NCBI RefSeq assembly: GCF_018861905.1
Contig: NZ_JAHLDU010000001.1
Span: 372,001 to 436,000, forward strand
DNA from: Clostridium sp. DSM 17811
GTDB taxonomy: Bacteria; Bacillota; Clostridia; Clostridiales; Clostridiaceae
Direction: 5' to 3'
Length of the DNA: 64,000 nucleotides
Both the position numbers and the translations under genes were made by a program. Positions 7,543 through 28,896 of the stretch are shown here, piece after piece. How positions within the stretch are numbered: the stretch's first letter is position 1; every line of letters starts with the position of its first letter. The notes under the pieces are model-generated. The model did not search any database. It saw only the letters and a list, made by a program, of their open reading frames with translations, and was not told the origin of the DNA.

Positions 7543-8376
7543 TTATTTTAAATATTCATGAATTGCTTCTTGCCAAGTTCTAGTTATATCTCCTGTTGTA
7601 AGTTCTAACATATAATTTCTAAGCACTGAGTACTCTGGCCTTTTTGCCGGACGTGGGAATTCATCACTTGTACACGGTAAAACCGTCGTCATTATACTCT
7701 TAATTCTAAAAATTTCTTTAGTGAACTCATACCATGTACATTCACCTTTGCAGGTGCAATGAAATAGTCCATAATTTTTTTGCTCTACAAGTTTAATTAT
7801 AGTTCTAGCTAAATCAACTGTACTTGTAGGTGTTCCTTTTTGGTCATTAACCACTTTTAATGTGGTATTAGTTTTACTTAAATTTATCATAGTCTTTACA
7901 AAGTTGTTTCCATCTCCATAAAGCCATGCTGTTCTAACTATGTAGTGTTTAGGATTATGATTTTTAACTAATATTTCTCCCTCGAGCTTAGTTTTTCCAT
8001 AAATAGTCAAAGGACCTATTTTGTCAAATTCCGTTAGTGGCTTATCTATATTGCCACCAAAAACATAGTCTGTTGAAACTTGGACAATTTCTGCGCCAAT
8101 TTCATTTGCAGCTATTGCTAAGTTTTTAGGTCCTATTGCATTTATCTTATATGCCATATCTATTTCCGTCTCACACTTGTCCACAGCTGTAAGTGCAGCA
8201 CAATTTATAATAACATCTGGTTTATTTTTATTTACGAAACTATATACTTCATTAATATTCGATATATCTAGATCTGACCTTCTCGTAAGTATTAAATCAA
8301 TCGTCTTTTTCTCTTTATATTGATTAGCTAATTCTCGACCAAGTTGCCCATTAGCTCCCGTAATTAGTATCTTCAT
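7543..8376 (-). CDS. rfbD: dTDP-4-dehydrorhamnose reductase
   Basis: This 277-residue enzyme catalyses the last step of dTDP-L-rhamnose synthesis, NAD(P)H-dependent reduction of dTDP-4-dehydro-L-rhamnose. It carries the N-terminal GANGQLGREL nucleotide-binding loop, INCAALTAVDKCE, the catalytic STDYVFGG, YGKTKLEGE (Tyr-x-x-x-Lys) and RTAWLYGDGNNFV. AGAGGAG precedes the ATG and a TATAAT box lies about 35 bases upstream (8412-8417). Its partners rfbA, rfbB and rfbC are 17-20 kb away at the other end of the locus, unusual for a rhamnose operon. Here it heads a short minus-strand unit of remnants. Confidence 0.95.
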   Translation of the reverse strand: MKILITGANGQLGRELANQYKEKKTIDLILTRRSDLDISNINEVYSFVNKNKPDVIINCAALTAVDKCETEIDMAYKINAIGPKNLAIAANEIGAEIVQVSTDYVFGGNIDKPLTEFDKIGPLTIYGKTKLEGEILVKNHNPKHYIVRTAWLYGDGNNFVKTMINLSKTNTTLKVVNDQKGTPTSTVDLARTIIKLVEQKNYGLFHCTCKGECTWYEFTKEIFRIKSIMTTVLPCTSDEFPRPAKRPEYSVLRNYMLELTTGDITRTWQEAIHEYLK

Positions 8377-8499
8377 ATTTAATTCTCCTCTTAAAGCTTA
8401 TTCTTATATAAATTATACCTTACTTTAATAATTAATTGAGGAAATTCTAAAGAATAAAAGATTATTAACGATAAGTTAATATATTATTTTAAATGAATT

Positions 8500-8528
8500 T
8501 TTACCAATAATATTTTATACAATATAAA
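8500..8528 (+). promoter_or_regulatory. Candidate sigma-A promoter of the riboswitch/beta-helix transcript
   Basis: TTTACC (8500-8505) and TATAAA (8523-8528) are separated by 17 bases, about 40 bases upstream of the riboswitch. The region is very AT-rich, so chance matches are possible. Confidence 0.4.
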
Positions 8529-8567
8529 ATTCATTTTTAATACCTTAAGATAAAACTTTTTACAGAA

Positions 8568-8640
8568 AATAGCAAACTTATTGAAAAGTAAGGACGCAAA
8601 GCTATAGGGCCTTATGAGAGTATGGTAGCCTAGCCACCAA
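8568..8640 (+). ncRNA. Cyclic di-GMP-I (GEMM-I) riboswitch
   Basis: The sequence carries the class-I c-di-GMP aptamer landmarks in order: AGCAAACTTA, a GAAA tetraloop (P2 loop), GGACGCAAAGCTA, then GGGCCT and ATGGTAGCCTAGCCACC. The GAAA tetraloop and the GGACGCAAAGC strand are the docking and ligand-binding elements of the Vc2-type aptamer. It ends 20 bases before the start codon of the first beta-helix gene, and no intrinsic terminator lies between. Control is therefore probably at ribosome access to the AAGAGGAG site rather than by termination. Whether c-di-GMP switches the gene on or off cannot be read from the sequence. Confidence 0.92.
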
Positions 8641-8660
8641 ATTAAGAGGAGTGATTTATT

Positions 8661-10022
8661 ATGTTTAAAAACAATATGAAAAAAAGTATTACAATATTAA
8701 TAATGTTAATTTCCTTATCAACCACTAGTCCATTTCTAAATACTACAAATGCCATAGGTGTTACAACTTCTGCTGGTATATCTGAGTCAACAAGTAATCC
8801 TACTATAATAGATGTTACAACTTATAAATTGGATATAACAGGCGTAACCGATACCTCAATCCAGTTTCAACAAATGATAGATTCATTACCAAGTGGAAGT
8901 ACAATACAATTACCAGCAGGCACGTATAAATTGTCGAACATTGTTAAGTTAAAGGATAATTTACATATTATCGCCTCTAATGATGTTATAATTAAGGGGA
9001 CTGGTTATAACACTTTATTCTCCACAGGTAATTCTAATAGTTTCGAGGGTATAGAATTCCAAAATTGTGCAACTGCTTTAAGTGTTTTTCAGAAAACTGG
9101 ATTTAATATTACAAACTGCAGATTTACAAATAACATTAATTATGTTGCAATTAATTTCTACGGAAGTCACAATTCAACAGTTAAAGATTCATATTTCTAC
9201 AACATCCACAAATACGGAATTTTAATTGATAGCGATAGTTCTGATATTAAAATCGATAACAATAATTTTGATAACCCTTTAGTTTTTGATGGCTATAGCG
9301 TAGAACAGATAAGTGGGCATGTTTATTGTCTAAATGGAACTAGAATTTTCGTGACAAACAATATTATAAAAAATAGCGGTGGGCAAGGTATTATATTTGG
9401 TTATAATTCAACAACAGGAAAAGGTACAACAAGTTCCGTCGCATTTAATAATCGTTGCATAGGTAATGGTCAAGAAGGCGTTACTACATATGGCGGAAGC
9501 AAGAAGGTTTCTAATGGAAACTCTATTGTTAGTAATACATCTATAAATAACAGATTTAATCAAATTGAAGTATGGCAATCTGATAATAATACTGTTCAAG
9601 GCAATACAGTAGAAGAATCCATATTTGGTCGTGGAAGTTTAGGATCTATTTGCCTTTTTGGTACCACCGGAACAACTGTTACGGATAACAACATATTATC
9701 GTCTCAAAGTAATGGAATAGCAATAATTGCGGGTAGCTTAAATTGCAACATATCAAACAATTTTATAGCTGATACAAATAGGCAAAATTTTGCTAAAACT
9801 CCTGAGAAAGGTAACGGAATATTACTTGATTGGAATGGAGTAGCTGATCCTCAATATATAACAATCGCTAATAATACAATTAGCTCAAGTAATGGAATTA
9901 TTGCTAAAAGTGGTGTTTACTCAACTTCCAATACTAATCATCATAACAAAATAAATAGCAACATAATAACAGGTTATCAATATGGAGTTCACTGGTATGC
10001 CCTAGCAACTTGTGAAAAATAG
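8661..10022 (+). CDS. Secreted right-handed beta-helix (pectate-lyase-3-like) protein, copy 1
   Basis: This 453-residue protein has a Sec signal peptide (positive MFKNNMKKS, hydrophobic core to about residue 25, cleavage near TTNA). The pectate-lyase-3-like start follows (DTSIQFQQMIDSLPSGSTIQLPAGTY in two blocks), then many Asn-rich beta-helix coils (NxSNNx, NNxxxNSGGQG). Residues shared by all three paralogues include GHVYCL, GNGQEG, QIEVWQ, VEES and KGNGILLD. The acidic and His positions there are candidates for an active site. The fold is typical of polysaccharide lyases, epimerases and GH28-like hydrolases. No specific activity can be assigned. A c-di-GMP-I riboswitch controls it, and it is embedded antisense to the surrounding EPS genes. 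Confidence 0.85.
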   Translation: MFKNNMKKSITILIMLISLSTTSPFLNTTNAIGVTTSAGISESTSNPTIIDVTTYKLDITGVTDTSIQFQQMIDSLPSGSTIQLPAGTYKLSNIVKLKDNLHIIASNDVIIKGTGYNTLFSTGNSNSFEGIEFQNCATALSVFQKTGFNITNCRFTNNINYVAINFYGSHNSTVKDSYFYNIHKYGILIDSDSSDIKIDNNNFDNPLVFDGYSVEQISGHVYCLNGTRIFVTNNIIKNSGGQGIIFGYNSTTGKGTTSSVAFNNRCIGNGQEGVTTYGGSKKVSNGNSIVSNTSINNRFNQIEVWQSDNNTVQGNTVEESIFGRGSLGSICLFGTTGTTVTDNNILSSQSNGIAIIAGSLNCNISNNFIADTNRQNFAKTPEKGNGILLDWNGVADPQYITIANNTISSSNGIIAKSGVYSTSNTNHHNKINSNIITGYQYGVHWYALATCEK

Positions 10023-10067
10023 ATTGACATTATAACCTCCCCACCGACATAAGAGGAGTGAATTAAT

Positions 10068-11414
10068 ATCTTAAATAATAACATAAGAAAAAGTATAGCT
10101 GTTACCATAATATTAACTGCTTTATTAAATGGTACTTCCTTTTTAACTACTACAAAAGCTGACACTGTGACGGCTAATTCAACTAATGTTCTTGCAACAA
10201 TAGATGCTCAAAAATATAATTTGGATAAAACGGGAATATCAGATACCTCTGCTTCATTTCAAAAAATGATAGATTCGTATCCAAAAGGTAGCACTATTAA
10301 TTTACCAAAGGGTATATATAAGATATCTGACATTGTTAATTTGAAAGATGGGATGAGTTTAATTGCAGGTAGTGACGTTGTAATAGCGGGCACTGGTAAA
10401 AACACTTTATTCACTACAGGTAATGATAACACTTTTAAGGGTATAGAGTTTCAAAATTGCTCTATCGCTTTAAGGGTGTTATATGTAAAAGGAATTAATA
10501 TAACAAACTGCAGATTCACAAATAATATTACTTATGCAGCAATTGATATTTATGGGAGTAGTGATTGCACTATTACTAATTCTTATTTCTATAATATAAA
10601 CAAATATGGGATTAAAATAGATAACAATAGTTCTAATATTACTATAGATAAAAATTATTTTGATAACCCTAAGGTTTTTGGTGGATATACCGATTCACAA
10701 ATAAGTGGACATGTTTACTGCTTAAGTGGAAGCAAAATCAATGTGACAAACAATATTTTGAAAAATAGCGGTGGTCAAGGCATAATATTCGGTTACAGTT
10801 CAACCTTAGGTAAGGGTACAACTAACTGCATAGCACGTAATAATACTTGTACCGGAAATGGTCAAGAAGGTATCACAATTTATGGAGGCGTTAAGAAACT
10901 CTCAAGTGGAAATTCTATTATAGGCAATACCTCTAAAAATAACAGATATAATCAAATAGAAGTATGGCAATCTGATAATAACACTATAAGTGGCAATACA
11001 GTTGAAGAATCAATAGCTGGGCGTGGTAATCTAGGCGCAATATGTCTGTTTACTACGACTGGGACAACTGTTACTGAAAATACAGTACTATCTGCTCAAA
11101 ATAATGGTATAGATATAACTGCTGGAAGTTTATATAGCACTATAACAAACAATAGTATAGCAAATACAAACTTAAACAATAATATTACTGCTCCCCAAAA
11201 AGGTAATGCAATATTACTTGACTCAGCTGGAATATCACAGCCACAATATACAACAATTAGAAATAATAAAATTAGTTCGAGTATAGGCATTATTCCTAAG
11301 AGTGGTATCTATTCAACTTCTAATAGTAATAAGTACAACAAAATAGATAGTAACTCTATAATAGGTTACAAATCTGGATTTCATTCTTATGCTAAAATGA
11401 CTTGTGGAATGTAA
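10068..11414 (+). CDS. Right-handed beta-helix protein, copy 2, with ATG-to-ATC at the start position
   Basis: This is a close paralogue of copy 1. The homologous reading frame starts at 10068: AAGAGGAG, a 9-base spacer, then ATC exactly where copy 1 has ATG. The following codons encode a standard signal peptide (NNNIRKSIAVTIILTALLNG, then TTTKADT). The first usable canonical start is the GTG at 10167, which would give a 415-residue protein lacking the signal peptide and probably stuck in the cytoplasm. Either the gene uses a rare ATC start, or it has lost export and efficient translation, or the base is a sequencing error. The mature domain is intact, with GHVYCL, GNGQEG, QIEVWQ and VEES. 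It lies 45 bases after copy 1, so it is likely cotranscribed under the riboswitch. Confidence 0.8.
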   Translation: MLNNNIRKSIAVTIILTALLNGTSFLTTTKADTVTANSTNVLATIDAQKYNLDKTGISDTSASFQKMIDSYPKGSTINLPKGIYKISDIVNLKDGMSLIAGSDVVIAGTGKNTLFTTGNDNTFKGIEFQNCSIALRVLYVKGINITNCRFTNNITYAAIDIYGSSDCTITNSYFYNINKYGIKIDNNSSNITIDKNYFDNPKVFGGYTDSQISGHVYCLSGSKINVTNNILKNSGGQGIIFGYSSTLGKGTTNCIARNNTCTGNGQEGITIYGGVKKLSSGNSIIGNTSKNNRYNQIEVWQSDNNTISGNTVEESIAGRGNLGAICLFTTTGTTVTENTVLSAQNNGIDITAGSLYSTITNNSIANTNLNNNITAPQKGNAILLDSAGISQPQYTTIRNNKISSSIGIIPKSGIYSTSNSNKYNKIDSNSIIGYKSGFHSYAKMTCGM

Positions 11415-11439
11415 CAACCTCTCCTTAGGATCTACTAAA

Positions 11440-11487
11440 CAAAGGATAAAAGCTATAATATTTGTAGACTTTATCCTTTGTTTTTAT
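11440..11487 (+). terminator. Intrinsic terminator after beta-helix copy 2
   Basis: An 11-bp perfect stem (11440-11450 with 11470-11480) is followed by TTTTTATTT. It ends the riboswitch-led transcript, so copy 3 needs its own promoter. Confidence 0.85.
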
Positions 11488-11613
11488 TTATAATTCACTC
11501 CGGAATATTGGATTGAATTACTCCTGGGCGGCTGGGCATACTAAACTATGCTCCTACTAAAGTAATTTTAATATTATAGAAAATTTACTAATATGAAAAT
11601 AAAGGGTGGATAT

Positions 11614-12948
11614 ATGAAATTTTTAAAAAATAAAACAGTCATAATTATTATAATAGTCTCCTTTGCATTTCTCATAGGGACATTTGTAGTAATTAACAAA
11701 ACGAAAGATCTTTCACTTCATAACATCAATAAGAATGATATAAAAAAATACTCATTAGACATAACTGGAGCTACGGACACAACAGCCGCATTTCAGAAAA
11801 TGATAAATTCATACCCAAGTGGAAGTACACTAAAGTTACCAGAAGGTAAATATAGTCTTCACGGTAGTGTAAAACTTCCAGATGGAATAAGATTACTTTC
11901 AAAAAATAAAGCAGTATTCATTGGTACTGGCAAAAATACTTTATTTCTTGCAGGAAATGACAACAGTTTTCAAGGTATAGAGTTTCAAAATTGCTCTACC
12001 GCAATAAACGTTGATTTGAAAAAAGGACTAAATGTAACTGAATGTAAATTTACAAACAAAATTGATTATGTTGCATTAAATATATCTGCAAGTAGCAACT
12101 GTAATATTACAAATTCTTATTTCAATGATATTCGTAAATATGGGGTTAAAATAGATAACGATAGTTCTAATATTACAATCGATAAGAATAATTTTGATAA
12201 TGACAAAGTTTTTGGTGGTTATCAAAAGGAACAAATAAGTGGCCATATTTACTGCTTAAATGGAAACAAAATCTCCGTGACAAACAATGTGTTAAAAAAT
12301 AGCGGCGGACAAGGAGTGATATTCGGTTTTAATTCAACAACTGGAAAAGGTACAACAAACTCTGTAGCAAGTGGTAATACATGCATCGGTAATGGTCAGG
12401 AAGGCCTCACTATTTATGGTGGAGACAAGAAAGTTACAAGTGGAAATTCTCTTATAGGAAATGTTTCTAAAAATAATAGATTTAATCAAATAGAAGTATG
12501 GCAAACTAAAAATAACATTGTTAAAAACAATACAGTAGAAGAATCTATCAAAGGTGTTGGCAATCTAGGAGCAATATGTTTGTATGAAACATCAAATACA
12601 ACTGCTACTGGAAACAAAGTGTTATCAGCACAAAAGAATGGTATTGATATAACTGCTGGAAGCTCTAATAACACTGTATCTAATAATATTATAAATAATA
12701 CAAATGGCGAAAATGATAATAAAGCTCCTGAGAAAGGTAATGGAATATTGCTGGACTCAAATGGAAAAGCTCAGCCTCAACATATAACAATTAAGGATAA
12801 TAAGATTAGCTCAAATAATGGAATAATATCCAAGAGTGGTATATATTCAACTTCTAATACAGATCAGCACAACACGATAGATAACAATACAATAAAAGGT
12901 TACAAAATTGGACTTCATGAGTATGCTAAAATGACAATTGGAAAATAA
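11614..12948 (+). CDS. Right-handed beta-helix protein, copy 3, membrane-anchored
   Basis: This third paralogue has the same pectate-lyase-3-like domain and conserved blocks (GHIYCL, GNGQEG, QIEVWQ, VEES). Its N-terminus differs: FLKNKTVIIIIIVSFAFLIG followed by TFVVINKTKD looks like an uncleaved signal anchor rather than a signal peptide. I choose the ATG at 11614 (444 aa) because AAGGGTGG precedes it; the ATG at 11593 has no such site. A terminator separates it from copy 2, and I find no c-di-GMP aptamer in its own leader. The three copies could therefore be expressed differently: two with secreted-type sequences and one tethered to the membrane. Confidence 0.82.
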   Translation: MKFLKNKTVIIIIIVSFAFLIGTFVVINKTKDLSLHNINKNDIKKYSLDITGATDTTAAFQKMINSYPSGSTLKLPEGKYSLHGSVKLPDGIRLLSKNKAVFIGTGKNTLFLAGNDNSFQGIEFQNCSTAINVDLKKGLNVTECKFTNKIDYVALNISASSNCNITNSYFNDIRKYGVKIDNDSSNITIDKNNFDNDKVFGGYQKEQISGHIYCLNGNKISVTNNVLKNSGGQGVIFGFNSTTGKGTTNSVASGNTCIGNGQEGLTIYGGDKKVTSGNSLIGNVSKNNRFNQIEVWQTKNNIVKNNTVEESIKGVGNLGAICLYETSNTTATGNKVLSAQKNGIDITAGSSNNTVSNNIINNTNGENDNKAPEKGNGILLDSNGKAQPQHITIKDNKISSNNGIISKSGIYSTSNTDQHNTIDNNTIKGYKIGLHEYAKMTIGK

Positions 12949-13323: not shown

Positions 13324-13366
13324 AAATACAAAGGAAAAGAGATAATCTATGAGATTATCTCTTTCC
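13324..13366 (-). terminator. Terminator overlapping the end of the Wzy-like gene
   Basis: A 15-bp stem (13333-13348 with 13352-13366, one bulge) overlaps the stop codon at 13347. On the minus strand it is followed by TTTGTATTT. This marks the end of the main minus-strand EPS operon. Confidence 0.75.
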
Positions 13367-14561
13367 TTATGCCTAAATTATCTTCTAATTCTATCTTATC
13401 AGGTGTCCACCTGCTTAGTATTAATCCATATATAATCCAATTTAATGGGTTTGTAAAATAACCACCGTAAATCTGATATAAGAAACTAAATAACAGAAGG
13501 TTTGCGAGTAACATATTTTTTTTGATACCTACGTTAATCGCGAGTAGTGTGAGTAATAAAACTAAATATATTATCCCAAATAAACCACCCTCTGCAATAA
13601 AATACGGATATGATGCTGCTACTACTGCTGTCATTCCAGTAGATTTAAAGATTTTCCTAGTATTGTCGGTATTAAGATTTCCAAAACCTACTCCGATGCC
13701 TTCTGTCTTAGTTATTGCTGTAGATGTGAATTCCTGAGTGACATTTACTCTGTAACTGTTGGAAGAATCTTTTCCATTTAACGTATCCACTGTTCTCATA
13801 TACATTGACGATTTCGTTACTACGAACAATATTGTTATTATGGTAAAGACCATTATTAATCCATATCCAACTAAAATGTTTTTAAAATTCAGTTTTGTTA
13901 TAATTATAATAAATGATATGAATATTATGGTGGAAAATAACATTACTGATGATCCGTAAGCTCCAGATAATGCTAATAGGCCTAAACAATCTATCATATA
14001 GACTATATATTTAGCTTGCACCTTATGAGTTTTTTCTTTAATAATTAAATACATTAATATAAGGATTATTATAGATAAGTGAAAACCTAGCTCACTAGGT
14101 TCTATGTAAAATAAATTTAGTCTTACAAGATTATATTTATTTATAGTATCATGAAGCCTCCATAAATAATCATTTTGTTTTAGAACAATCGCTATAGGTG
14201 TAAGTATTAAGTAGATTCTACAAATATAATCAATAAACTTTTTAATCTTAAAGTCATGAATTTTTCTCGATACCAAAATCATTAAAGAAATGCATATAGT
14301 AATTTTAGAAATATTAACCAAAAGTTTTTGCATTTCTACATTTTGTATTACCATTCCTTGAATGATCCCATAAATCACAATCGGTAAAGCACATATTATT
14401 AAGAGTGAAATATCTCTCTTTTTTTTAAATATAACAAAGACAATGCCGAGCATCCCCAATGCATAAAACAGATCTAAATTACCGGTTAATGTTTTACTAA
14501 CAAAAGGTAAATTGGCAAACATCTGATGAAAGCAATACAATAATGCCATTAATATTTCCAT
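13347..14561 (-). CDS. Wzy-like polysaccharide polymerase / O-antigen ligase-like membrane protein
   Basis: This is a 404-residue protein with about ten hydrophobic segments throughout. A polar extracytoplasmic loop (about residues 255-320, containing KGDSSNSYRV-like and GVGFGN sequence) lies before the last helices, as in Wzy/WaaL-type proteins. It has the low sequence conservation usual for polymerases. The place in the operon, downstream of glycosyltransferases and in the same cluster as Wzx and Wzz, supports the role of joining repeat units on the outer face of the membrane. It begins 9 bases after the GT4 gene, preceded by AGGAG, and ends in a terminator. Confidence 0.75.
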   Translation of the reverse strand: MEILMALLYCFHQMFANLPFVSKTLTGNLDLFYALGMLGIVFVIFKKKRDISLLIICALPIVIYGIIQGMVIQNVEMQKLLVNISKITICISLMILVSRKIHDFKIKKFIDYICRIYLILTPIAIVLKQNDYLWRLHDTINKYNLVRLNLFYIEPSELGFHLSIIILILMYLIIKEKTHKVQAKYIVYMIDCLGLLALSGAYGSSVMLFSTIIFISFIIIITKLNFKNILVGYGLIMVFTIITILFVVTKSSMYMRTVDTLNGKDSSNSYRVNVTQEFTSTAITKTEGIGVGFGNLNTDNTRKIFKSTGMTAVVAASYPYFIAEGGLFGIIYLVLLLTLLAINVGIKKNMLLANLLLFSFLYQIYGGYFTNPLNWIIYGLILSRWTPDKIELEDNLGIRKEIIS

Positions 14562-14570: not shown

Positions 14571-15956
14571 CTATTCTTTAATCAGACCTGAGTACAATTC
14601 CATTATATCCGATGCATGTTTTTCCATTGTATAAATACTTGCTAGATTTAGTATATTATTATTAATATACGATAGTTTTTCTCTATCCTCTATTATAGCT
14701 CCTAAATTTTTATATAATTCATCCTCGTCGGCTTTTATTACTATGCCAGTAGTTCCGGATTTTACCATATCTTTAAACCCTACAAGATCAGTTAAAATTA
14801 CAGGTACGGCATAAGAAAATGCCTCAAGTGCTATATATCCAAATGTCTCATACCAGATGCTTGGAACTATCAATACATCTGTATTCTTAAATAATTCCTC
14901 AAGGTCAGAATAAACATAGGTACCCTTTATCTTTACTTTCCCCATAAACTCATCTATATTTATATTTACATTCTTTCCATAAACATTCAAATTCCATTTG
15001 CTAATATTATCTTTAAGTAGTTGTCTAAGCACATCTAATAGAAAATATAACCCTTTATACTTCTCTATCGACCCGATATATGTTATTTTTAATGGTTCTT
15101 TGCTATTACTATGTTTTTTCATTCTATTATCCTTTATATTTGAATGAGAAATATTAAGAACTGTACTATTTACATTGTTTATATATCTCTCATATGTATT
15201 CTTTGCCACACTGCTATTATAATGAATAAAATCGATATTATTAAGTATATCAATAGAATTTTTCCTAAATCTAACATATCCAGTAGCCGAAGGATTATTT
15301 TTATTGTTTTTTTCTTCATTTGCAAGTTCAGTTTCAGTTAATTCATGATTTTTTTTAATAATTAATTTCTGCTTATAAGCTCTTAGCTTTTTTATAATAC
15401 TACTATTTTTTAAATATCTATAAGTTCTTGACTGCATAAAAAATACCAAGGAATTACTGTATCCATTTCTATTACATGTTATGCAGTTCTCTCCATTATT
15501 ATATTCCTCGCATATTTCCCCTTGCAAATCAATAAGATTGACTTTAGGGCATATACCAAAATAATCATGAGAAGTAAATATGGTTTTTATATTTAATTTC
15601 TTTGCAGCTGCTACAAGCTCTTTATCTAAACCCATCAGTGTATGGATATGTAAAACTTTTACTTTTAATTTTTTCAAGAAATCTATATATACACTTATAT
15701 CTCTATCTTTAAAATATGTCTCTGGACTTGGTATTCCGCTAAGTAGTGGAATATCAATTGGGTTTAGTATTTCATATACTTTAACACCCTTAAATGACTT
15801 ATTCTCATCAATTCGTAATTTTTTATCAATCGTGAAATGACCAGGATATAATATTGTAACGTTATTACCACCTGCAACTTGTTCTAACATAAGATCTACA
15901 GAATATTTAGTTAATCCTCCAGTCCGTAGTGGAGGTAATCCAAGAGAATAATGCAA
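14571..15956 (-). CDS. GT4 family glycosyltransferase with CxxC insert
   Basis: This GT-B enzyme of 461 residues or more has an N-terminal domain with LHYSLGLPPLRTGGL and TSHDYFGICPKV. An insert with CEEYNNGENCITCNR follows, and then the GT4 donor domain (KITYIGSIEKYKGL, VPSIWYETFGYIALEAFSYAVPVI). The only canonical start in frame is the TTG at 15956, which is 18 bases from the AGGAGG site and would cut off IKI of the IKILHYSLGLPP beginning. The codon at the proper distance is ATT (15963-15965), and the paralogous fragment at 7255 starts GTG-ATT. The real start may thus be non-canonical. It probably adds one sugar of the EPS repeat unit. Confidence 0.85.
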   Translation of the reverse strand: MHYSLGLPPLRTGGLTKYSVDLMLEQVAGGNNVTILYPGHFTIDKKLRIDENKSFKGVKVYEILNPIDIPLLSGIPSPETYFKDRDISVYIDFLKKLKVKVLHIHTLMGLDKELVAAAKKLNIKTIFTSHDYFGICPKVNLIDLQGEICEEYNNGENCITCNRNGYSNSLVFFMQSRTYRYLKNSSIIKKLRAYKQKLIIKKNHELTETELANEEKNNKNNPSATGYVRFRKNSIDILNNIDFIHYNSSVAKNTYERYINNVNSTVLNISHSNIKDNRMKKHSNSKEPLKITYIGSIEKYKGLYFLLDVLRQLLKDNISKWNLNVYGKNVNINIDEFMGKVKIKGTYVYSDLEELFKNTDVLIVPSIWYETFGYIALEAFSYAVPVILTDLVGFKDMVKSGTTGIVIKADEDELYKNLGAIIEDREKLSYINNNILNLASIYTMEKHASDIMELYSGLIKE

Positions 15957-15985
15957 TATTTTAATAAGTCGACGCCTCCTTAAAC

Positions 15986-17137
15986 TTATAAAAAAAGCTC
16001 TTCGTAATCATGAACAATCTTGTCCCAAGAGTAAGAATCTTTTATTCTGTTTGTAGCTCTTGTAGACATAGCTACAATCTCATTTTCTGTTAATTTTTCT
16101 GCTTTGCTTATTAAAGAAGCTAAATTACCATCTTCATCACTAAAATACATAGCTCCGTTTTTCCCAACTTCTTTATTAAAATTAACATCTAAAAGCAGAT
16201 TAATATCCGTACTCGATAAGGCTTCAAGAAGTGAAGGATTCGTTCCTCCCACTGAATGTCCATGAATATATGCAAATGCTTCTTCTCTTATCTTTTTTAG
16301 AAGTTCATTATCATAAACAGTTCCTACAAATTTTATTCGCGTGTCGCTAGTAAAGTTCGTAGCCTTCAGCAATCTTTCATAAAATTTATTTTTCTCCACA
16401 TTTGTAATTATAACAAGATCCTTATTAACATCCGATTTCATAAACTCTCTTATCATAGTTTCATAACTGTTCTCTGGTACAAACCTGCCAACAATTAAGT
16501 AATATTCTTTCCTTTTTATTAAAAAATCGTCAAAAAAGTTTGTTATACCATCATCCTTCTCCATTAGCTTAGATCTTCCAATTTCCGCTCCATAAGCTAT
16601 AAATGTAGTATTAGGCTTGTACATATCATAATCTGTATTTATGTAATCCTCTATACCTCTTGAATCACATATTAGTAAATCTGCATGTTTTACCATCAGT
16701 TTCTCAGAAAACTTCCAATAATTCCTCACAGGCACACTCCATTTACTACGTTTCCATTCATGTCCATCAGGATTTATATAAAGCTTTATTCCCAAATCCT
16801 TGAGTTGTTTCTTGTAAAATGATATAAATGGACCAATACGACAAGCAAGAATAAGAACAATTGAATTAGATAATTTCTTTTCCTTAATATACTTTATTGA
16901 TTTGCTTAAAGCTTGCAAATCATAAAGTACTGCTTTCGCACTACCTATGTCTTTTACATTAACATTAAAACATCTTGCTTTATTATAATAAAACTCTTCT
17001 TCCTTAACATTTAGGCAAGCCACATGATACATGATATCCTGCTTTTTTTTATAAAGAGTTAATTTATCTACGAAAGTCTCGAATCCACCATAATTAGATG
17101 GTATTCCTTTAGAACCTATAATGAATACATCTGTCAT
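15986..17137 (-). CDS. Cps2T-like (DUF1972) rhamnosyl/glycosyltransferase
   Basis: This 383-residue protein starts MTDVFIIGSKGIPSNYGGFE, the characteristic beginning of DUF1972 glycosyltransferases such as streptococcal Cps2T. It continues with INPDGHEWKRSKWSVPVRNYW and a GT4-like C-terminal domain (YYLIVGRFVPENSYETMI, FAYIHGHSVGGTNPSLLEAL). These enzymes usually transfer rhamnose to the first sugar on undecaprenyl diphosphate, which fits a locus carrying all four dTDP-rhamnose genes. GAGGTG precedes the ATG. The acceptor is an inference. Confidence 0.88.
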   Translation of the reverse strand: MTDVFIIGSKGIPSNYGGFETFVDKLTLYKKKQDIMYHVACLNVKEEEFYYNKARCFNVNVKDIGSAKAVLYDLQALSKSIKYIKEKKLSNSIVLILACRIGPFISFYKKQLKDLGIKLYINPDGHEWKRSKWSVPVRNYWKFSEKLMVKHADLLICDSRGIEDYINTDYDMYKPNTTFIAYGAEIGRSKLMEKDDGITNFFDDFLIKRKEYYLIVGRFVPENSYETMIREFMKSDVNKDLVIITNVEKNKFYERLLKATNFTSDTRIKFVGTVYDNELLKKIREEAFAYIHGHSVGGTNPSLLEALSSTDINLLLDVNFNKEVGKNGAMYFSDEDGNLASLISKAEKLTENEIVAMSTRATNRIKDSYSWDKIVHDYEELFL

Positions 17138-17174
17138 TTGTTTACACCTCTATTTTTGTTTTATAAAATTATCT

Positions 17175-17804
17175 TTAGTCCGTTCCATTTAGAAATACAC
17201 CTATAATATTAGCATGCACTTTTTGAAGAATTTCTTTAGCCGTGTGGGCAGATTTTCTTTCTGTTTTCCCTGATTTAACAACAAGAACACATCCATCAGT
17301 ATATCTTGATAAAACCTCAGCATCAGCACCTATTGTGATCGGAGGTGTATCAATAATGATATAATCATAATCTTTCTTTAATGAAATTATAAATTCATTA
17401 AATCTCGACGATACAAAAAGTTCAGCATAATTTAATGTTGATGCACCAGAAGTCAGTATAGATAAATTCTTTATCTCCGTAGTCTTAACTACTTTTTCAA
17501 ACAATACATCCCCGGATAAATAATTCACAAGTCCTTTATCGTTTGTTAAGCCAAACATGTTGTGTATATTTGGTTTTTTCAGATCACAATCAACAATTAT
17601 AGTTTTTTTACCACTTTTTGCAAGTAATAGTGAAAGATATGATGTTGTAGTTGATCTACCTTCGCTACTTTCTGCACTTGTTATCATAATAACCTTTTTT
17701 TCACTATCCGCGTTTAAGAGCTGAATATTTGCTTTTAGTCCGTTAAATGCTTTTAAATTAATTGCGTCTAAATTAAGATACTCTGCATATTTTGTTTCTC
17801 CCAT
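17175..17804 (-). CDS. CpsD/CapB-type bacterial tyrosine kinase, atypical
   Basis: This 209-residue P-loop protein is of the BY-kinase family, the cytoplasmic partner of the Wzz-type protein encoded upstream. Visible motifs are Walker A (ESSEGRSTTTS), Walker A' (KTIIVDCDLKKPNIHNMFG) and Walker B (YDYIIIDTPPITIGADAEVLS). Two things are odd. The Walker A lysine (normally GKST) is arginine. The protein stops at NIIGVFLNGTD without the tyrosine-rich tail that these kinases autophosphorylate. I choose the ATG at 17804 because GAAGGGAG abuts the one at 17813. It may act as a regulatory partner rather than a normal autokinase. Confidence 0.85.
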   Translation of the reverse strand: MGETKYAEYLNLDAINLKAFNGLKANIQLLNADSEKKVIMITSAESSEGRSTTTSYLSLLLAKSGKKTIIVDCDLKKPNIHNMFGLTNDKGLVNYLSGDVLFEKVVKTTEIKNLSILTSGASTLNYAELFVSSRFNEFIISLKKDYDYIIIDTPPITIGADAEVLSRYTDGCVLVVKSGKTERKSAHTAKEILQKVHANIIGVFLNGTD

Positions 17805-17830
17805 TAAATACATCTCCCTTCTAATTAATA

Positions 17831-18499
17831 TTAAATATCCGATTTATTTCTTTTTGGTAAATTTCCGAGAACATGTAGACCTAAATATTTCTCCACATCA
17901 TCTTTGGTCCTAATCTTTTCATCAAAGAACCCTATAAATGTTACAATAAATACCGAAAGGAACAATCCAAGTAAAAACGCTAATATTACGTTCATAGATT
18001 TAAATTTATTATTTATAAGATCGCTCTGTCCCGAATTCTCCATTATTTTCATCACCTGCGAAGGATATATTCTCTTTACTTCTCTTGAATAGGATGTTAT
18101 AACAGCGTTTGCTATAGCTATAGACTGCTTTTGTGATTCTCCACTAGCTGTAATTGTAAGTATCGGAGCATCAGCTGATACAGTAACCTCATAACTCTTT
18201 TGCAACTTTAAAACTGGTACAGAACCTTTTAATAATAAGCTAGCGTTCTTTGGTATAGTACTAGAGTTTGCGATTTGCTCAAATGTAGGACTTAAACTTT
18301 TTGCATTAACTATATCTTCTTTATTTCCTATTACAACGCTTGTTATTGTTTGATACATTGGTTTAGAATTTTTCATAGAATAATAGCTAAGTAAAGTCGC
18401 TGTTAATGTTGCTAGTATTGTTACAAGCAATATAATCCATTTTCCTCTTTTTAGAACATTTATAAATTCTTTATATCCTTTTGTAGTTTCATTATTCAT
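17831..18499 (-). CDS. Wzz/CpsC-type chain-length regulator
   Basis: This 222-residue polysaccharide co-polymerase has membrane helices at about 18-40 and 170-192. The extracytoplasmic domain between them contains SLSPTFEQIANSSTI and ILTITASGESQKQSIAIANAV, which fits the Wzz domain. The cytoplasmic tail DEKIRTKDDVEKYLGLHVLGNLPK is typical of CpsC/CapA proteins that activate a BY-kinase. It precedes the kinase gene by 18 bases in the operon, as in most Gram-positive capsule loci. It likely sets EPS chain length together with Wzy. Confidence 0.9.
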   Translation of the reverse strand: MNNETTKGYKEFINVLKRGKWIILLVTILATLTATLLSYYSMKNSKPMYQTITSVVIGNKEDIVNAKSLSPTFEQIANSSTIPKNASLLLKGSVPVLKLQKSYEVTVSADAPILTITASGESQKQSIAIANAVITSYSREVKRIYPSQVMKIMENSGQSDLINNKFKSMNVILAFLLGLFLSVFIVTFIGFFDEKIRTKDDVEKYLGLHVLGNLPKRNKSDI

Positions 18500-18555
18500 T
18501 ATAATACCTCCATGGTAATTGTTCTTTTTATGATATTGTTTTATTAATTTTAGAT

Positions 18556-19617
18556 CTATAGACCTTTTATATTGTTATATACCAATTTGATCCTTACTAA
18601 AAACAATATCAATTCAACATTTCTTGATTTCATAGACTTAACAAGTAATTTATGGAATTTACCAATCACCTTGGAATCATCCAAATTCTTTCTAACTTCT
18701 TCATTATCTAATAAGTTTAATATTTCTTGGCTTTTACTTCTTAAAGTTGATTTTTGCTCTATTTTACTTTCCAAATTCAAAAAACTTCTAGAGTAAGTTA
18801 TCTTATAAAAATACTCAATTATACGATAAGTAAAATGAGTTGCTTGGTACTCCCTAGCATCCTTGCTATATTTACCCCATTCTTTAAGTTTATCTACGAT
18901 AGTATCATTTTCGCTCATTACAATATCCAAATAATTATCACAGTATTTAAGCCATACTGGATTTGCATTTTCAATTCTGTAATTATATAAAGCTTCTGTA
19001 ATGACTATGCATTTGTCTATATGCTGATAATAGTTAGCATTAAATATTGTGTCTTCTCCACGTTTATAATTCTCAAACTTCAAATTGTATCTTTTAATAA
19101 TCTCTGATTTGTAAATTTTATTCCATAGAGTATCACCAATTTCTTCTTCTCTAAGTAGTATATAATTTGACAAAATTTCATCTTTCGTTTTAAAATTTTG
19201 TTTCTTTGGTAATACAGTAGTTTTTCTGATAATTTCTCCATTCTTATCTACAAAAACATTGGTTTGACCTGATATAACTAGATCCACATCATCATTTTTT
19301 ATACTTTCATACATTTTCTCAAATAAATTGATCTCATACCAATCGTCACAATCTAAAAATATAATATATTTACCAATGGATTCATCTATTCCCCTATTTC
19401 TAGCAGCCCAGGTTCCTCCATTTTTTTTACTAATTAATTTGATTCTAGAATCAATCTTTGCATATTCGTTGCACATTTCCTTACTGTTATCAGTAGATCC
19501 ATCATCTATTATTATTAATTCAAAATCTTTAAATGTTTGATTTATTATCATCTCTAAACACTCTTTGATATATTTTGCTCCATTATAAATCGGAACTATA
19601 ATACTTATCTTCACCAT
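18556..19617 (-). CDS. GT2 family glycosyltransferase
   Basis: This 353-residue GT-A enzyme shows the GT2 start ISIIVPIYNGAKYIKECLEM, LIIDDGSTDNS, GGTWAARNRGI and the DxD-type FLDCDDW at about residue 90. The C-terminal part has the helical character of clostridial capsule GT2 proteins and no membrane segments. AAGGAG precedes the ATG. A gap of about 85 bases separates it from the upstream GT2. Donor and acceptor cannot be deduced. Confidence 0.9.
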   Translation of the reverse strand: MVKISIIVPIYNGAKYIKECLEMIINQTFKDFELIIIDDGSTDNSKEMCNEYAKIDSRIKLISKKNGGTWAARNRGIDESIGKYIIFLDCDDWYEINLFEKMYESIKNDDVDLVISGQTNVFVDKNGEIIRKTTVLPKKQNFKTKDEILSNYILLREEEIGDTLWNKIYKSEIIKRYNLKFENYKRGEDTIFNANYYQHIDKCIVITEALYNYRIENANPVWLKYCDNYLDIVMSENDTIVDKLKEWGKYSKDAREYQATHFTYRIIEYFYKITYSRSFLNLESKIEQKSTLRSKSQEILNLLDNEEVRKNLDDSKVIGKFHKLLVKSMKSRNVELILFLVRIKLVYNNIKGL

Positions 19618-19704
19618 ACTAACACTCCTTAATAATGACCTTCGGTGCTTTTAATCATAACCTTTAATTATACAAAATTCTATTGGTAATAATAGCAATG
19701 TTTT

Positions 19705-20730
19705 TTACTTCATAACATTTTTAATCTTGTACAATAGAGGGAAAATAAGGCCATACGTTTTTGTTTTTATAAGCAATATATTAACTTTATCTTTAAATGT
19801 TAGCTTACTATTCCTTATTATTTCTGAAATTTGTAAATTATCTATCTCTTTTGATACTATCTCTTTAAACTCAACGTAATATTTCTTATCTCCAGTTTCA
19901 GAGCTTTGTATAAAGTATTTATTATGTATAGCCCATAAAGTTTTTATCAAATAAACTTTATAATAATCGATTAACTCACCATAAATAAGCGGGTTCTTTG
20001 TTATAAAATCTCTCATTATATAACATCCGTCTATCATATCTTTCATTGATTTAATTGAAAATGTTCTTGTAAGTGATAACTCTCTTTGCCTATAATAATA
20101 AAGTGGTTCTATCATTGAATAAATCCTATTTGCGTTTGCAAGTAATAAAAATCCAACTGGAGTATCCTCACATACTACAAAATCCGGAAATGAAATTTTA
20201 TTTTCAAAAAAAAGTTCTCTTTTATGCAGCTTATTCCAAACATAACCCTTGATATCATTTAACAAAAACATCTTAAGGGCCTCACCTTTATCTAAAAAAC
20301 CTTCTTTATCAATTCCTTCTATTTTCTTATAATTAGAATGCTGCGCAATTTGTCCTTCTTTATACAATATGTAATTACAAATAACTATGTCAATATTTCC
20401 ATTAGTAGCTGTTTTATACATTTTCTCAAACATATCAAGCTCTACAAAATCATCACTATCAACAAATGCTATGTATTCACCCCTTGCTGCTTTGAGCCCA
20501 GCATTTCGAGTTTCACTAATACCACTATTCTTTTTATTTATAATAACTAATTCAGGAAATTTCTTTTTATATTCTTTAAGTATTTCATAACAATTATCTG
20601 TAGAGCCATCATTTATTACAATAATCTCTTTATTATCAATAGTTTGATTAATAACGCTATCTAAACATTTTGGCAAAAATTCCTCTACATTGTAAACAGG
20701 TATTATAATACTGACATCAACTCTATCCAA
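19705..20730 (-). CDS. GT2 family glycosyltransferase
   Basis: A 341-residue GT2 enzyme with VSIIIPVYNVEEFLPKCLDS, VINDGSTDN, GISETRNAGLKAARGEY and the DxD motif in FVDSDDF. The start is a TTG at 20730 with AGGGGG eight bases upstream; no in-frame ATG or GTG lies closer. It is followed downstream by another GT2 gene after about 87 bases. It probably adds a further sugar of the repeat unit. Confidence 0.9.
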   Translation of the reverse strand: MDRVDVSIIIPVYNVEEFLPKCLDSVINQTIDNKEIIVINDGSTDNCYEILKEYKKKFPELVIINKKNSGISETRNAGLKAARGEYIAFVDSDDFVELDMFEKMYKTATNGNIDIVICNYILYKEGQIAQHSNYKKIEGIDKEGFLDKGEALKMFLLNDIKGYVWNKLHKRELFFENKISFPDFVVCEDTPVGFLLLANANRIYSMIEPLYYYRQRELSLTRTFSIKSMKDMIDGCYIMRDFITKNPLIYGELIDYYKVYLIKTLWAIHNKYFIQSSETGDKKYYVEFKEIVSKEIDNLQISEIIRNSKLTFKDKVNILLIKTKTYGLIFPLLYKIKNVMK

Positions 20731-20742
20731 AAAACATTCCCC

Positions 20743-21711
20743 CTAGTTAGCCTTCTTTATATACATTAGTTTCTTAACTTTATGAAAAATGATATCCTTA
20801 AGTAAAATTCGTAAATATTTTGAGCGCATACAGCTTGTTAATATTAAATAAATTCTATAAATCTGATTTTTATTCTTATATAGTTTTGATTTAGTAAGCC
20901 CTTCTAATGCTAGACTATATCTTTTTTCTTGATGTACATTAATTTTAATATTTGAAAGTTCTTCTACTTTCTCATTTTCATGCCCGTATTTCACTCTATC
21001 TTTATACATCTTAACAACGTGTTTTGAGTATAAGAGCTGTTGAAGAGAATTACTTTTGGATATTCCACTCTTGCGAATCCTATATCTAACTAAAAACTCA
21101 TTAGTATTACCAAGTTTAAATCCATTAGTTATAAGTCTTAATAGGAAGTCATAATCCTCTGCACATGTAATTTCTCTATAACCTTCATTTTTATCTATAC
21201 ATTCTTTTCTAAAAAACCAGGTTGGATGATTAATAAAATCTACATTTAGAAGGCAACTCTTTATTAATTTCATATCCACTGGCATAATTTCATCTCTATA
21301 TAATTCTTTTCCATCCTCATCTATATTAATACATCTAGCACCCATAAAATCCACATCTAGATGACTCTTTAGATATTCAATTTGTTTGTCAATTCTACTC
21401 ACTAGTGATATATCATCTGCATCCATTCTTGCTATAAAATCACCCTTTACATATGTTAAAGCTTTATTTAAGCTCCTAACTAATCCAATGTTTTTTTCGT
21501 TTTTGAAGAATCGTATTCTAGCATCTTTTTTGTTGTAAAATTTAATTATGTTCTCTAACTTTTTATTACTAGGATTGTCTAAAATAATAATAAATTCTAA
21601 ACTTCTATAACTTTGATTTAGGATTGATTCTATTGCTTCCATTAACCATTTTTCTTTTTCGTTATATACACTCATAATTACAGACACTAATTGTTGTTTA
21701 TTAACTTCCAT
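20743..21711 (-). CDS. GT2 family glycosyltransferase
   Basis: A 322-residue GT2 enzyme with VSVIMSVYNEKEKWLMEAIES, IIILDNPSN, NIGLVRSLNKAL and ARMDADDIS (the DxDD motif). INHPTWFFRKE and ITCAEDYDFLLRL are the blocks typical of the WcaA-like GT2 subgroup. GAGGTG precedes the ATG. It is 12 bases from the next gene and so in one operon with it. Confidence 0.9.
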   Translation of the reverse strand: MEVNKQQLVSVIMSVYNEKEKWLMEAIESILNQSYRSLEFIIILDNPSNKKLENIIKFYNKKDARIRFFKNEKNIGLVRSLNKALTYVKGDFIARMDADDISLVSRIDKQIEYLKSHLDVDFMGARCINIDEDGKELYRDEIMPVDMKLIKSCLLNVDFINHPTWFFRKECIDKNEGYREITCAEDYDFLLRLITNGFKLGNTNEFLVRYRIRKSGISKSNSLQQLLYSKHVVKMYKDRVKYGHENEKVEELSNIKINVHQEKRYSLALEGLTKSKLYKNKNQIYRIYLILTSCMRSKYLRILLKDIIFHKVKKLMYIKKAN

Positions 21712-21759
21712 TAAAACACCTCATTAAATATTTTGTCTAAAACTCCTAGTGATTTAAAT

Positions 21760-23271: not shown

Positions 23272-23280
23272 ATCTTACCT

Positions 23281-25368: not shown

Positions 25369-25460
25369 TAAATCATCTCCTTCGGAGCTACAATATTAAC
25401 TCCTATCTCTTTTAGTTATTCATCACTTTCAGTGCTGTATTCATCACCTATGGTGCTGTT

Positions 25461-25494
25461 AAAATGAAATACTAACGACATAAAATGTCGTTAG
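25461..25494 (-). terminator. Weak terminator hairpin at the end of rfbC
   Basis: A perfect 9-bp stem (25472-25480 with 25486-25494) includes the rfbC stop codon and is followed on the minus strand by TATTTCATTTT. Just beyond it (25416-25460) are two tandem 21-bp units of the form TTCATCAC...GTGCTGT. Probably partial termination inside the operon. Confidence 0.5.
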
Positions 25495-26048
25495 AATCTC
25501 ACATTTGCAGCTTTTAGGCATTGTGCTTTTTTATCTTTCTCTGAAAGTAGTACTTCCCCTATACCGTCTAGTGGCCACTCCACTGCTATGTCCGAATCAT
25601 TCCAGGTTATTGAACCTTCAAATTCAGGATGATATAAATTAGTACATTTATATACAAAAGTCGCCTCATCTGATGTTACAAGGAAGCCATGAGCAAACCC
25701 TTCTGGTACATAAAACTGCCTTCTATTCTCCCCGCTCAGCATTACGCCAAACCATTTACCATAGGTTTGAGAAGTGGCCCTTAAATCCACAGCTACATCA
25801 AACACTTCACCGCTTAGAACCCTCACAAGTTTTCCTTGAGAATACTCCCTTTGAAAATGTAATCCCCTAAGTACTCCCTTTTTAGATTTAGATTCATTAT
25901 CTTGAACAAATACCATATTAAGACCTGCTTCTTTAAACTCATCATAGTTATATGTCTCCATAAAATATCCTCTGTTATCTCCAAAAACTGTAGGTTCTAT
26001 TATATATAAATCTTTTATTTCAGTCCCTATAAACTTAAATTTTCCCAT
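25491..26048 (-). CDS. rfbC: dTDP-4-dehydrorhamnose 3,5-epimerase
   Basis: This 185-residue cupin enzyme carries out the third step of dTDP-rhamnose synthesis. Visible motifs are FGDNRGYFMETYNYDEF, FVQDNESKSKKGVLRGLHFQ (catalytic His), FDVAVDLRATSQTYGKW, YVPEGFAHGFLV and TSDEATFVYKCTNLYHPE. AAAGGAG precedes the ATG, and it follows rfbB by 8 bases. The length is normal for the family. Confidence 0.96.
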   Translation of the reverse strand: MGKFKFIGTEIKDLYIIEPTVFGDNRGYFMETYNYDEFKEAGLNMVFVQDNESKSKKGVLRGLHFQREYSQGKLVRVLSGEVFDVAVDLRATSQTYGKWFGVMLSGENRRQFYVPEGFAHGFLVTSDEATFVYKCTNLYHPEFEGSITWNDSDIAVEWPLDGIGEVLLSEKDKKAQCLKAANVRF

Positions 26049-26056
26049 TATATTTC

Positions 26057-27112: not shown

Positions 27113-27150
27113 ATTATTTTCCTCCAAATTTTATCCTTGTTATATATTAT

Positions 27151-28074: not shown

Positions 28075-28124
28075 AATTATATTTCCTCCTCTTATAATTT
28101 ATTAAGTTCAAAAACATTCCTTAA

Positions 28125-28156
28125 TTTTAAAAACTCTAAACTTGCAATTTAGAGTT
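28125..28156 (-). terminator. Intra-operon hairpin between priming transferase and rfbA
   Basis: A 9-bp stem (28132-28140 with 28148-28156) lies after the transferase stop and is followed on the minus strand by TTTAAAATT. It could separate galU and the transferase from the rest of the EPS operon, at least partly. Confidence 0.55.
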
Positions 28157-28160
28157 AACC

Positions 28161-28829: not shown

Positions 28830-28896
28830 CTATTCATCCCCCTTTTTATAGAATATTAAACTTTCCATAACGTACCCGATTTAGTATTGCTATTAC

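Follow-up and report, generated by a model that had tools for sequence, protein, structure and literature searches.

Three paralogous beta-helix genes, the first of them preceded by a riboswitch aptamer, lie within an exopolysaccharide (EPS) cluster of Clostridium sp. DSM 17811, which raises the question of what the encoded proteins do to the surrounding polysaccharide and which signal governs their synthesis. We analysed a stretch of 64,000 nucleotides, here called the window, and compared it with 17 congeneric genomes.

Layout of the locus

Every gene picked at 2-8376 and 13347-31307 of the window lies on the minus strand, and the flanking genes encode RmlA/B/C/D-type proteins, Wzz, a ParA-like protein, Wzx, a priming sugar transferase, glycosyltransferase and pyruvyl-transferase. 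Genes 1-3 are on the plus strand, antisense within this cluster (Table 1). No Pfam family was found for w13347 nor for the Wzy-like proteins of two congeneric genomes (G002 and G004), hence "Wzy-like" is used here for hydropathy and position alone.

Table 1. Features of the locus, with positions in the window.
Feature	Position	Strand	Remarks
RmlD-type dTDP-rhamnose reductase, divergent neighbour of aptamer	7543..8376	-	Pfam match
U-rich 5' strand, candidate basal helix with Shine-Dalgarno region	8555..8562	+	minimum-energy folds
Class-I cyclic-dinucleotide (GEMM-I, RF01051) aptamer	8561..8641	+	cmscan 63.3 bits
Shine-Dalgarno AGGAG of gene 1	8647..8651	+	9 nt upstream of ATG
Gene 1, right-handed beta-helix protein	8661..10022	+	453 aa, probably secreted, aptamer-led
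Shine-Dalgarno AGGAG of gene 2	10054..10058	+	
Gene 2, beta-helix paralogue	10068..11414	+	probably secreted, start ATC 10068
Hairpin then U-run, likely terminator of gene 1-2 unit	11438..11482	+	-20.4 kcal/mol
Gene 3, beta-helix paralogue	11614..12948 (ORF 11593-12948)	+	N-terminal membrane anchor, probably separate transcription unit
Polytopic membrane protein w13347, Wzy-like by layout	13347..14561	-	10 hydrophobic segments, no Pfam match
Remaining EPS cluster	14571..29808	-	glycosyltransferases, ParA-like, Wzz, Wzx, pyruvyl transferase, RmlC-, RmlB- and RmlA-type, priming sugar transferase, nucleotidyltransferase

Across the plus-strand genes, identity to gene 1 is 58-64%, and all three proteins exceed the Pfam cut-offs of PF13229 Beta_helix and PF05048 NosD, in agreement with the initial annotation, which had described three paralogous beta-helix genes inside a minus-strand EPS cluster. 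The array genes are under purifying selection, invariant H, E, R and W residues stand close to where the strands of successive coils begin, and the predicted structure matches AlgE epimerases, tailspikes and RbmB.

Judged from their sequences, the products of genes 1 and 2 are probably secreted and that of gene 3 is probably membrane-anchored. The N-terminal hydrophobic segment is strong in gene 3 (3.18) and weak in gene 2 (1.64); gene 1 has no segment above the threshold used, and for this protein "secreted" is therefore less firm. By eye, residues 1-40 of gene 1 look like a signal peptide.

The aptamer and its ligand

With 63.3 bits and E 4.9e-10, the RF01051 match is far above the gathering score of 35, and a chance match was rejected on this score. 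It ends 19 bases ahead of the ATG of gene 1, so that a class-I aptamer does stand shortly before the first beta-helix gene as first proposed. The whole genome (5.19 Mb, 98 contigs) holds two RF01051 matches, including this one. With the numbering transferred by eye, the ligand contacts A47 and C92 are present, as CGCAAAGC and CCACC are kept here and likewise in 8 further beta-helix-leading aptamers. The CUAA..AUG letters of P3, which we take to be the tetraloop receptor, are missing and gapped in the cmscan alignment.

The usual G20 (Vc2 numbering), the mark of c-di-GMP-selective GEMM-I aptamers, is replaced in the window aptamer by A20, the mark of GEMM-Ib, and positions 8570-8571 read U19-A20. 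Of the c-di-GMP aptamer that had been annotated, the class-I match stands, while A20, typical of cGAMP-type switches, makes the assigned ligand less certain. A GEMM-Ib-like switch for 3',3'-cGAMP would concern the ligand only and is compatible with every other explanation considered below; we judge it unlikely. U19-A20 equals the U13-A14 contacts given for the cGAMP riboswitch 4YAZ in PMC7288161, and A20 occurs in 15 of 17 genus aptamers (one of them, G001:C49, slightly under the cut-off at 34.2 bits) versus 3 of 17 readable aptamers outside the genus. It should be noted that the latter were readable by pattern in 17 of 29 loci (L106-L134; four by eye inside a longer match), and that these 29 are the best-scoring aptamers, hence skewed to the consensus. 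In PMC9262584, position 20 is named as a selectivity factor, but according to the same NMR study it is not a hard filter. The synthases argue against cGAMP: the canonical Asp is kept in 14 of the 15 GGDEF matches of the genome and the 15th is a fragment, leaving no Hypr signature, and the SMODS synthase PF18144 was found in 0 of 17 genus genomes. Geobacter GEMM-Ib riboswitches for 3',3'-cGAMP share U-A at the counterparts of positions 19-20 and are located upstream of surface and polysaccharide genes, but differ in that neither a Hypr GGDEF nor a SMODS protein was found here.

Start codons and transcription units

Gene 2 starts at the ATC codon 10068 instead of the GTG at 10167 given in the list of open reading frames, and this non-AUG start (AUC/AUU) is conserved. 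The stretch ahead of its Shine-Dalgarno sequence looks, by eye, like the 3' end of the aptamer leader.

The hairpin downstream of gene 2 (-20.4 kcal/mol, z -5.9) was matched by 0 of 200 shuffles and, with its U-run, probably marks the end of a unit formed by genes 1 and 2; gene 3 is then probably outside aptamer control. The aptamer thus probably leads genes 1 and 2, but not all three genes as had been suggested. A simple GC-rich terminator scan gave 0 terminators, and a promoter scan gave 31 matches versus a mean of 28.3, no better than chance. Pairing with the Shine-Dalgarno sequence is possible in eight gene-proximal leaders, with complementarity not above composition shuffles; free folds gave a mixed outcome, with the pairing present when the window leader was folded to minimum energy.

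Distribution among related genomes

Full-length copies of the array genes are present in 8 of the 17 congeneric genomes, and these are exactly the 8 having the adjacent Wzy-like gene w13347. At least one copy adjoins EPS genes in all 8, and 6 retain the aptamer ahead of gene 1; no Rfam match at E<=5 was found in four loci of the array genomes G008 and G009 (L051, L052, L057 and L058). The proposed association of beta-helix genes, EPS genes and aptamer is therefore seen in the relatives too, with the exception of a fused copy in G008 (L057), which adjoins DUF6063 and peptidase genes away from EPS genes. The genome G010, which is without the Wzy-like gene, has array fragments only, next to rml-type genes, and one of them carries a stop.

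In two further species a leader 83-86% identical (the identity table omits the G011 leader) precedes a different beta-helix gene, here called type-2, at another version of the EPS locus. This replacement of the ORF behind a kept leader supports a functional link between switch and EPS. We dropped the possibility that type-2 is an array orthologue, given a weak N-terminal profile match only (probability 82%). Type-2 is present in 2 of 206 Clostridiaceae genomes, and a pattern scan revealed no viral relative.

A widespread family was rejected: matches to the array proteins at E<=1e-20 came from 9 of 206 Clostridiaceae genomes, namely G010 with its fragments and the 8 genomes carrying full-length genes, all in one genus of 46, and an even draw of 398 Bacillota genomes yielded the family in the window's own genome only. 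The genes downstream of 24 aptamers sampled beyond the genus had no match to a beta-helix family stronger than about 1e-5 among the best 25 of 30 families, the last listed having E 1.3e-5. These 24 come from the 29 loci mentioned above; of those left out, L106 has no downstream gene, the nearest ORF of L108, L109 and L111 is >800 bases away and that of L132 overlaps the aptamer, and 11 of the 24 proteins are incomplete, running off the fetched stretch.

Relationship to phage tailspikes

Beyond the genus a single relative was found, a phage tail protein in a tail-gene context that is 44% identical to gene 1; it lies on L135, the only IMG/VR contig found by pattern scans. A tblastn search with gene 1 against phage and plasmid collections gave no match, on which an origin from a plasmid or a characterised phage was dropped; nor did the L135 protein match the phage collection. 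A polymerase common to phage and locus was likewise dropped, since w13347 has no similarity to the Wzy_C protein of L135. The array proteins have a beta-helix domain homologous to that of the L135 protein and resemble phage tailspikes such as phi29 gp12 and the Sf6 and HK620 TSP, but a signal-peptide-like stretch or membrane anchor replaces the phage N-terminal part, and the genes sit in an EPS locus rather than a tail module.

Discussion

With confidence just short of even, we read the locus as a cassette for self-directed EPS processing, in which beta-helix proteins matched to the EPS, probably depolymerases, are under riboswitch control. Two secreted proteins (genes 1-2) and one anchored protein (gene 3) of the phage-tailspike, RbmB or AlgE type would act on, and most likely depolymerise, the polysaccharide of the surrounding Wzx/Wzy-type cluster. 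As the aptamer 3' end nearly abuts the gene 1 Shine-Dalgarno sequence, synthesis of the secreted enzymes may be tied to a lifestyle signal. A ligand-OFF switch would be favoured, with the Shine-Dalgarno sequence paired into the basal helix; when the messenger falls, the enzymes would be made and the cell would leave the matrix. This proposal draws on data for the aptamer, the paralogues, the co-occurrence with the EPS version, the leader kept with a differing ORF, the phage homology, the predicted fold and purifying selection; secretion, substrate, cleavage over binding, ligand identity and the OFF direction are what we infer.

It is possible, if doubtful, that the locus is also an exchangeable slot for leader and beta-helix gene, in which the phage-tailspike-like enzyme is swapped to fit a new EPS behind an unchanged leader, so that every strain would have a messenger-controlled depolymerase for its own coat, A20 reflects drift in this lineage (relaxed or towards cGAMP) and gene 2 is held at low dose by its conserved AUC/AUU start. 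Rather unlikely, in our judgement, is that the proteins bind EPS without cutting it, as matrix or cell-wall tethers organising the coat, with gene 3 anchored and genes 1-2 secreted. The invariant residues near strand starts, together with the match to tailspikes that depolymerise, fit active sites better; as tailspikes also bind before cutting, this evidence does not separate the two activities.

We regard it as quite improbable that the array is an old inserted cassette hitchhiking without functional connection to EPS. Descent could explain the co-occurrence, and the one G008 copy lies apart from EPS genes, but the shared leader preceding another ORF where the EPS version differs, purifying selection on the array and the decayed state of the copies in G010 all argue otherwise. 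Epimerisation or other modification of the exported EPS, as AlgE performs on alginate, seems very unlikely too: uronic acids, the substrate of AlgE, would be hypothetical in the present EPS, and the AlgE catalytic motif was not seen by eye in the array/phage alignment. That domesticated tailspikes serve against phages, secreted copies stripping or masking the EPS receptor, would fit the phage tail relative and copies that track the EPS version, but a riboswitch in 6 of 8 array genomes suggests lifestyle control over infection, and we consider this reading most improbable.

The self-directed EPS-processing cassette has close precedents. RbmB is the VPS lyase of Vibrio cholerae (PDB 9ozl, 9ozd; PMC11637428), to which the fold predicted here is close, but RbmB is absent from the sequence matches of an array protein profile search of PDB, and the present locus differs in its three copies, direct riboswitch control, phage tail relative and an enzyme that is predicted only. 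In Clostridioides difficile, PPEP-1 sits behind a class-I c-di-GMP riboswitch that governs a secreted enzyme removing surface material at low c-di-GMP (PMC11477304); there a protease acts on proteins, whereas here a beta-helix protein, probably acting on polysaccharide, follows an A20 aptamer. The 5' UTR of the Bacillus thuringiensis collagen adhesion protein gene carries Bc2 RNA, a c-di-GMP riboswitch, which likewise precedes a surface-protein gene of a Gram-positive; an adhesin is encoded there, and the excerpted text mentions no EPS locus (PMC4933901).

Our literature searches found no description of a c-di-GMP riboswitch with beta-helix genes in Clostridium, nothing joining a c-di-GMP-I riboswitch with pectate lyase, and, in the partial texts returned, none of such a module for c-di-GMP riboswitch, exopolysaccharide and Clostridium. 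The module is not described among the matches listed for psychrophilic Clostridium riboswitch/exopolysaccharide or for non-AUG start codons, and the excerpt of PMC8996182 does not mention c-di-GMP. The suggestion of a possibly undescribed matrix-control module agrees with these searches, but is tempered by RbmB and PPEP-1.

Some of the species concerned are either members of the C. estertheticum complex of chilled-meat spoilers or set beside it for comparison (PMC8996182). From its sequence, the locus looks like a built-in means of loosening the slime coat in cold-loving Clostridium species, and it would then be a source of enzymes removing EPS in the cold. The A20 aptamers may serve as a natural experiment on the evolution of GEMM-I selectivity in genomes with no evident cGAMP synthase. 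If the proposal is true, every aptamer-led beta-helix protein should act solely on EPS made by its own cluster, Gram-positive anaerobes would have an RbmB-like dispersal tool that is directly riboswitch-controlled and matched to a serotype-like EPS locus, and the evolution of phage tailspikes would be tied to bacterial self-dispersal.

The aptamer and its gene unit

The class-I cyclic-dinucleotide aptamer that the initial annotation placed before gene 1 was recovered by cmscan at 63.3 bits (cut-off 35), and is one of two such aptamers in the genome. The gene 1 ATG (8661) lies 19 bases beyond its last base. The aptamer had been taken to head all three beta-helix genes; given the strong hairpin and U-run after gene 2, in our reading it heads only genes 1 and 2 as one unit, and gene 3, which has a membrane anchor, forms a unit of its own. 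By hydropathy scan the anchor is clear in gene 3, weak in gene 2 and not seen in gene 1, whose product is predicted to be secreted on the basis of a signal-like N-terminus read by eye.

The three genes show 58-64% identity to gene 1, all three proteins score above the curated PF13229 and PF05048 cut-offs, and comparison with three relatives gives dN/dS values of 0.10-0.26. A tree of 28 rows placed gene 3 in a single clade of eight with full support, while the gene-1 group (nine rows) and a gene-2 group (seven rows) were less well supported but contained inner clades, of four species each, that had full support. Unresolved at the base were G009_2, G008_C6b and one of the two halves of the G008_C65 fusion.

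Features in the window and in related stretches (L-handles)
Feature	Stretch	Position	Remarks
Class-I aptamer	window	8561-8641 (+)	
Shine-Dalgarno of gene 1	window	8647-8651	AGGAG
Gene 1	window	8661-10022 (+)	
Gene 2	window	10068-11414 (+)	
Hairpin and U-run	window	11438-11482	3' of gene 2; strong, z -5.9
Gene 3	window	11614-12948 (+)	
Region behind gene 3	window	13090-13290	core letters shared with TwoAYGGAY RNA (by eye); no above-threshold match
TwoAYGGAY RNA	window	37632-37785	61.3 bits
Membrane protein	window	13347-14561	10 hydrophobic segments; Wzy-like in layout only; without Pfam match
DUF1972 glycosyltransferase	window	15986-17137	
Short glycosyltransferase-like ORF	window	6752-7261	169 aa; start resembles full-length GT 14571-15956 (by eye); possibly a remnant
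GGDEF protein	window	54582-56492	636 aa; canonical Asp
Second class-I aptamer of the genome	L002 (G000:C27)	1501-1650	no clear same-strand gene behind, only a terminator-like hairpin with U-run (by eye)
Tandem class-I aptamers (G002, G004)	L064; L066	9463-9681; 9738-9957	
Fused double beta-helix ORF	L057 (G008:C65)	7224-11890	
Broken array remnants (G010)	L059	about 9726-10093	beside rml-type genes; genome without Wzy-like gene
fn3 + Ice_binding-like (PF11999) proteins	L063 (G008); L065 (G007)	9993-11786; 8508-9608	behind class-I A20 aptamers
Array-homologous tail protein and Wzy_C (O-antigen ligase-like) gene	L135 (viral contig)	4812-6350, 6381-7697	the two are convergent
Start-codon comparison	window; L048, L049, L050, L051, L052, L055, L057	10068 (window)	

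Association with the EPS locus

The beta-helix genes lie antisense inside a minus-strand EPS cluster of RmlA/B/C/D-type, Wzz, ParA-like, Wzx, priming sugar transferase, several glycosyltransferase and pyruvyl-transferase genes. The expectation that their homologues occur at EPS loci was borne out by gene maps, which put array genes beside EPS genes in 8/8 genomes. The adjoining membrane protein was present in exactly the eight array genomes and in none of the nine others, one of which (G014) is only 51% complete; by simple counting, which ignores kinship, the probability of such a coincidence among 17 genomes is 1 in 24,310. The DUF1972 glycosyltransferase is more general, with matches in 12 of the 17. 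As a counter-case, the fused double ORF of G008 has DUF6063 and peptidase M3 genes as neighbours, lacks an aptamer and is not near EPS genes; on L051, by contrast, the G008 copies do adjoin genes for glycosyltransferases and a priming sugar transferase. The remnants in G010 look as if the array decays upon a change of EPS version. We consider a functional link between the beta-helix genes and the EPS locus quite probable.

The genus sample (17 genomes) includes C. frigoris, C. psychrophilum, C. tagluense, C. lacusfryxellense and a MAG, and from these named members we regard the genus as cold-adapted clostridia. Gene 3 had matches at E<=0.001 in ten genomes, with full-length genes in eight only; G001 and G010 hold short array fragments, at least one per genome with a stop codon. 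Array copies are scattered over contig ends in G008, G011 and G016. Across Clostridiaceae the family was found in 9 of 206 genomes (E<=1e-20), every one in this genus; of 398 evenly sampled Bacillota genomes, the window's own was the only one to hold it.

A shared leader before different genes

Of the 17 genus aptamers detected with RF01051, six lead the array (G000, G003, G006, G007, G011 and G016). Four more form two tandem pairs in G002 and G004, each pair before one beta-helix gene (490-496 aa) that had no BLAST match to the array at 1e-8, only a weak N-terminal profile match. This gene is antisense in another version of the EPS locus; in G004, just as in the window, rmlD is the immediate divergent neighbour. 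Because the gene-proximal leaders of G002 and G004 (101 nt, 93% identical to each other) share 83-86% identity with the array leaders of G000, G003, G006, G007 and G016 yet precede non-matching beta-helix genes, the leader is, judged from sequence, homologous, and it is the ORF that varies with the EPS version. Against the leaders of a kinase gene and two Ice_binding-like genes the same G002 and G004 leaders reach 71-74%, and against the G015 aptamer 58-59%; the first aptamers of the pairs resemble the Ice_binding/kinase leaders (73-80%) nearly as much as the array leaders (73-82%). Since class-I A20 aptamers stand before fn3 + Ice_binding-like proteins in G008 and G007, cold-related surface proteins may be under the same messenger. 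A U-run follows the first tandem aptamer and a Shine-Dalgarno the second, which suggests transcriptional, then translational control. Outside the genus, among 25 of 30 families shown, no Beta_helix/NosD match was found behind 24 of 29 sampled aptamers, a null that bounds such matches to E above about 1e-5 and in which 11 of the 24 proteins are incomplete, cut by the end of the stretch examined.

Start codon of gene 2

At the position of the gene 1 ATG in the window (AGGAG + 9 nt), gene 2 has ATC in G000, G003, G006 and G016, and ATG in G007. ATT stands at the start in G009_2, G008_C6b and G008_C65, so that, with gene 1 and gene 3 copies set aside, 7 of 8 readable array starts are non-AUG, G011 being left out as its start is off its contig. 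Non-AUG start codons are subject to IF3-type discrimination. All eight copies carry an in-frame TGA just 5' of the start codon, inside the Shine-Dalgarno stretch, and in the ATC and ATT copies a signal-like reading frame continues from the odd codon. The dN/dS of the gene-2 frame, counted from 10167 on, is 0.14-0.23, which speaks against these copies being pseudogenes and, with the conserved start features, suggests that the non-AUG start is not a sign of decay but reflects selection for initiation at a low level.

Ligand and direction of control

The window aptamer has AAUAGCAAAC where most class-I aptamers sampled show AAnGGCAAA, with A at Vc2 position 20, U at 19, and A47 and C92 retained (numbering transferred by eye). 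A20 occurs in 15 of the 17 genus aptamers, G20 in those of G015 and G000:C27; outside the genus A20 was seen in 3 of 17 readable aptamers. The Geobacter cGAMP riboswitch is described in a review as contacting its ligand through U13 and A14, among others (PMC7288161), and an NMR study treats position 20 as a selectivity factor and not a hard filter (PMC9262584). Hypr enzymes have Ser in place of the canonical GGDEF Asp (PMC6456294). Here 14 of 15 GGDEF matches in the genome keep that Asp, the 15th being a fragment, and no SMODS proteins were found in the 17 genus genomes. As the Asp is kept in 14 of 15, SMODS proteins were not found and position 20 is no hard filter, c-di-GMP, bound with relaxed selectivity, seems the likelier ligand.

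The aptamer 3' end and Shine-Dalgarno are conserved within one gap (CCACCnAAnTAARAGGAGTG), and a U-rich 5' strand is able to pair with the Shine-Dalgarno in all eight gene-proximal leaders, which would amount to an OFF design. In these eight this pairing was no better than in shuffles, and free folds of the leaders vary among species. We lean somewhat towards OFF control.

Relation to known systems

In concept the nearest known system is RbmB, a polysaccharide lyase whose gene belongs to the biofilm cluster of V. cholerae and which disrupts biofilms (PMC11637428). The closest control logic is that of PPEP-1 behind a class-I switch (PMC11477304). Our full reading is a self-directed EPS-processing cassette of predicted beta-helix enzymes, most likely depolymerases, under the riboswitch; since a G008 copy sits away from EPS genes we have lowered it slightly, to just short of an even chance. 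The RbmB concept and the PPEP-1 control logic seem to be joined here at one locus, together with a match to the EPS version and a phage-tail relative.
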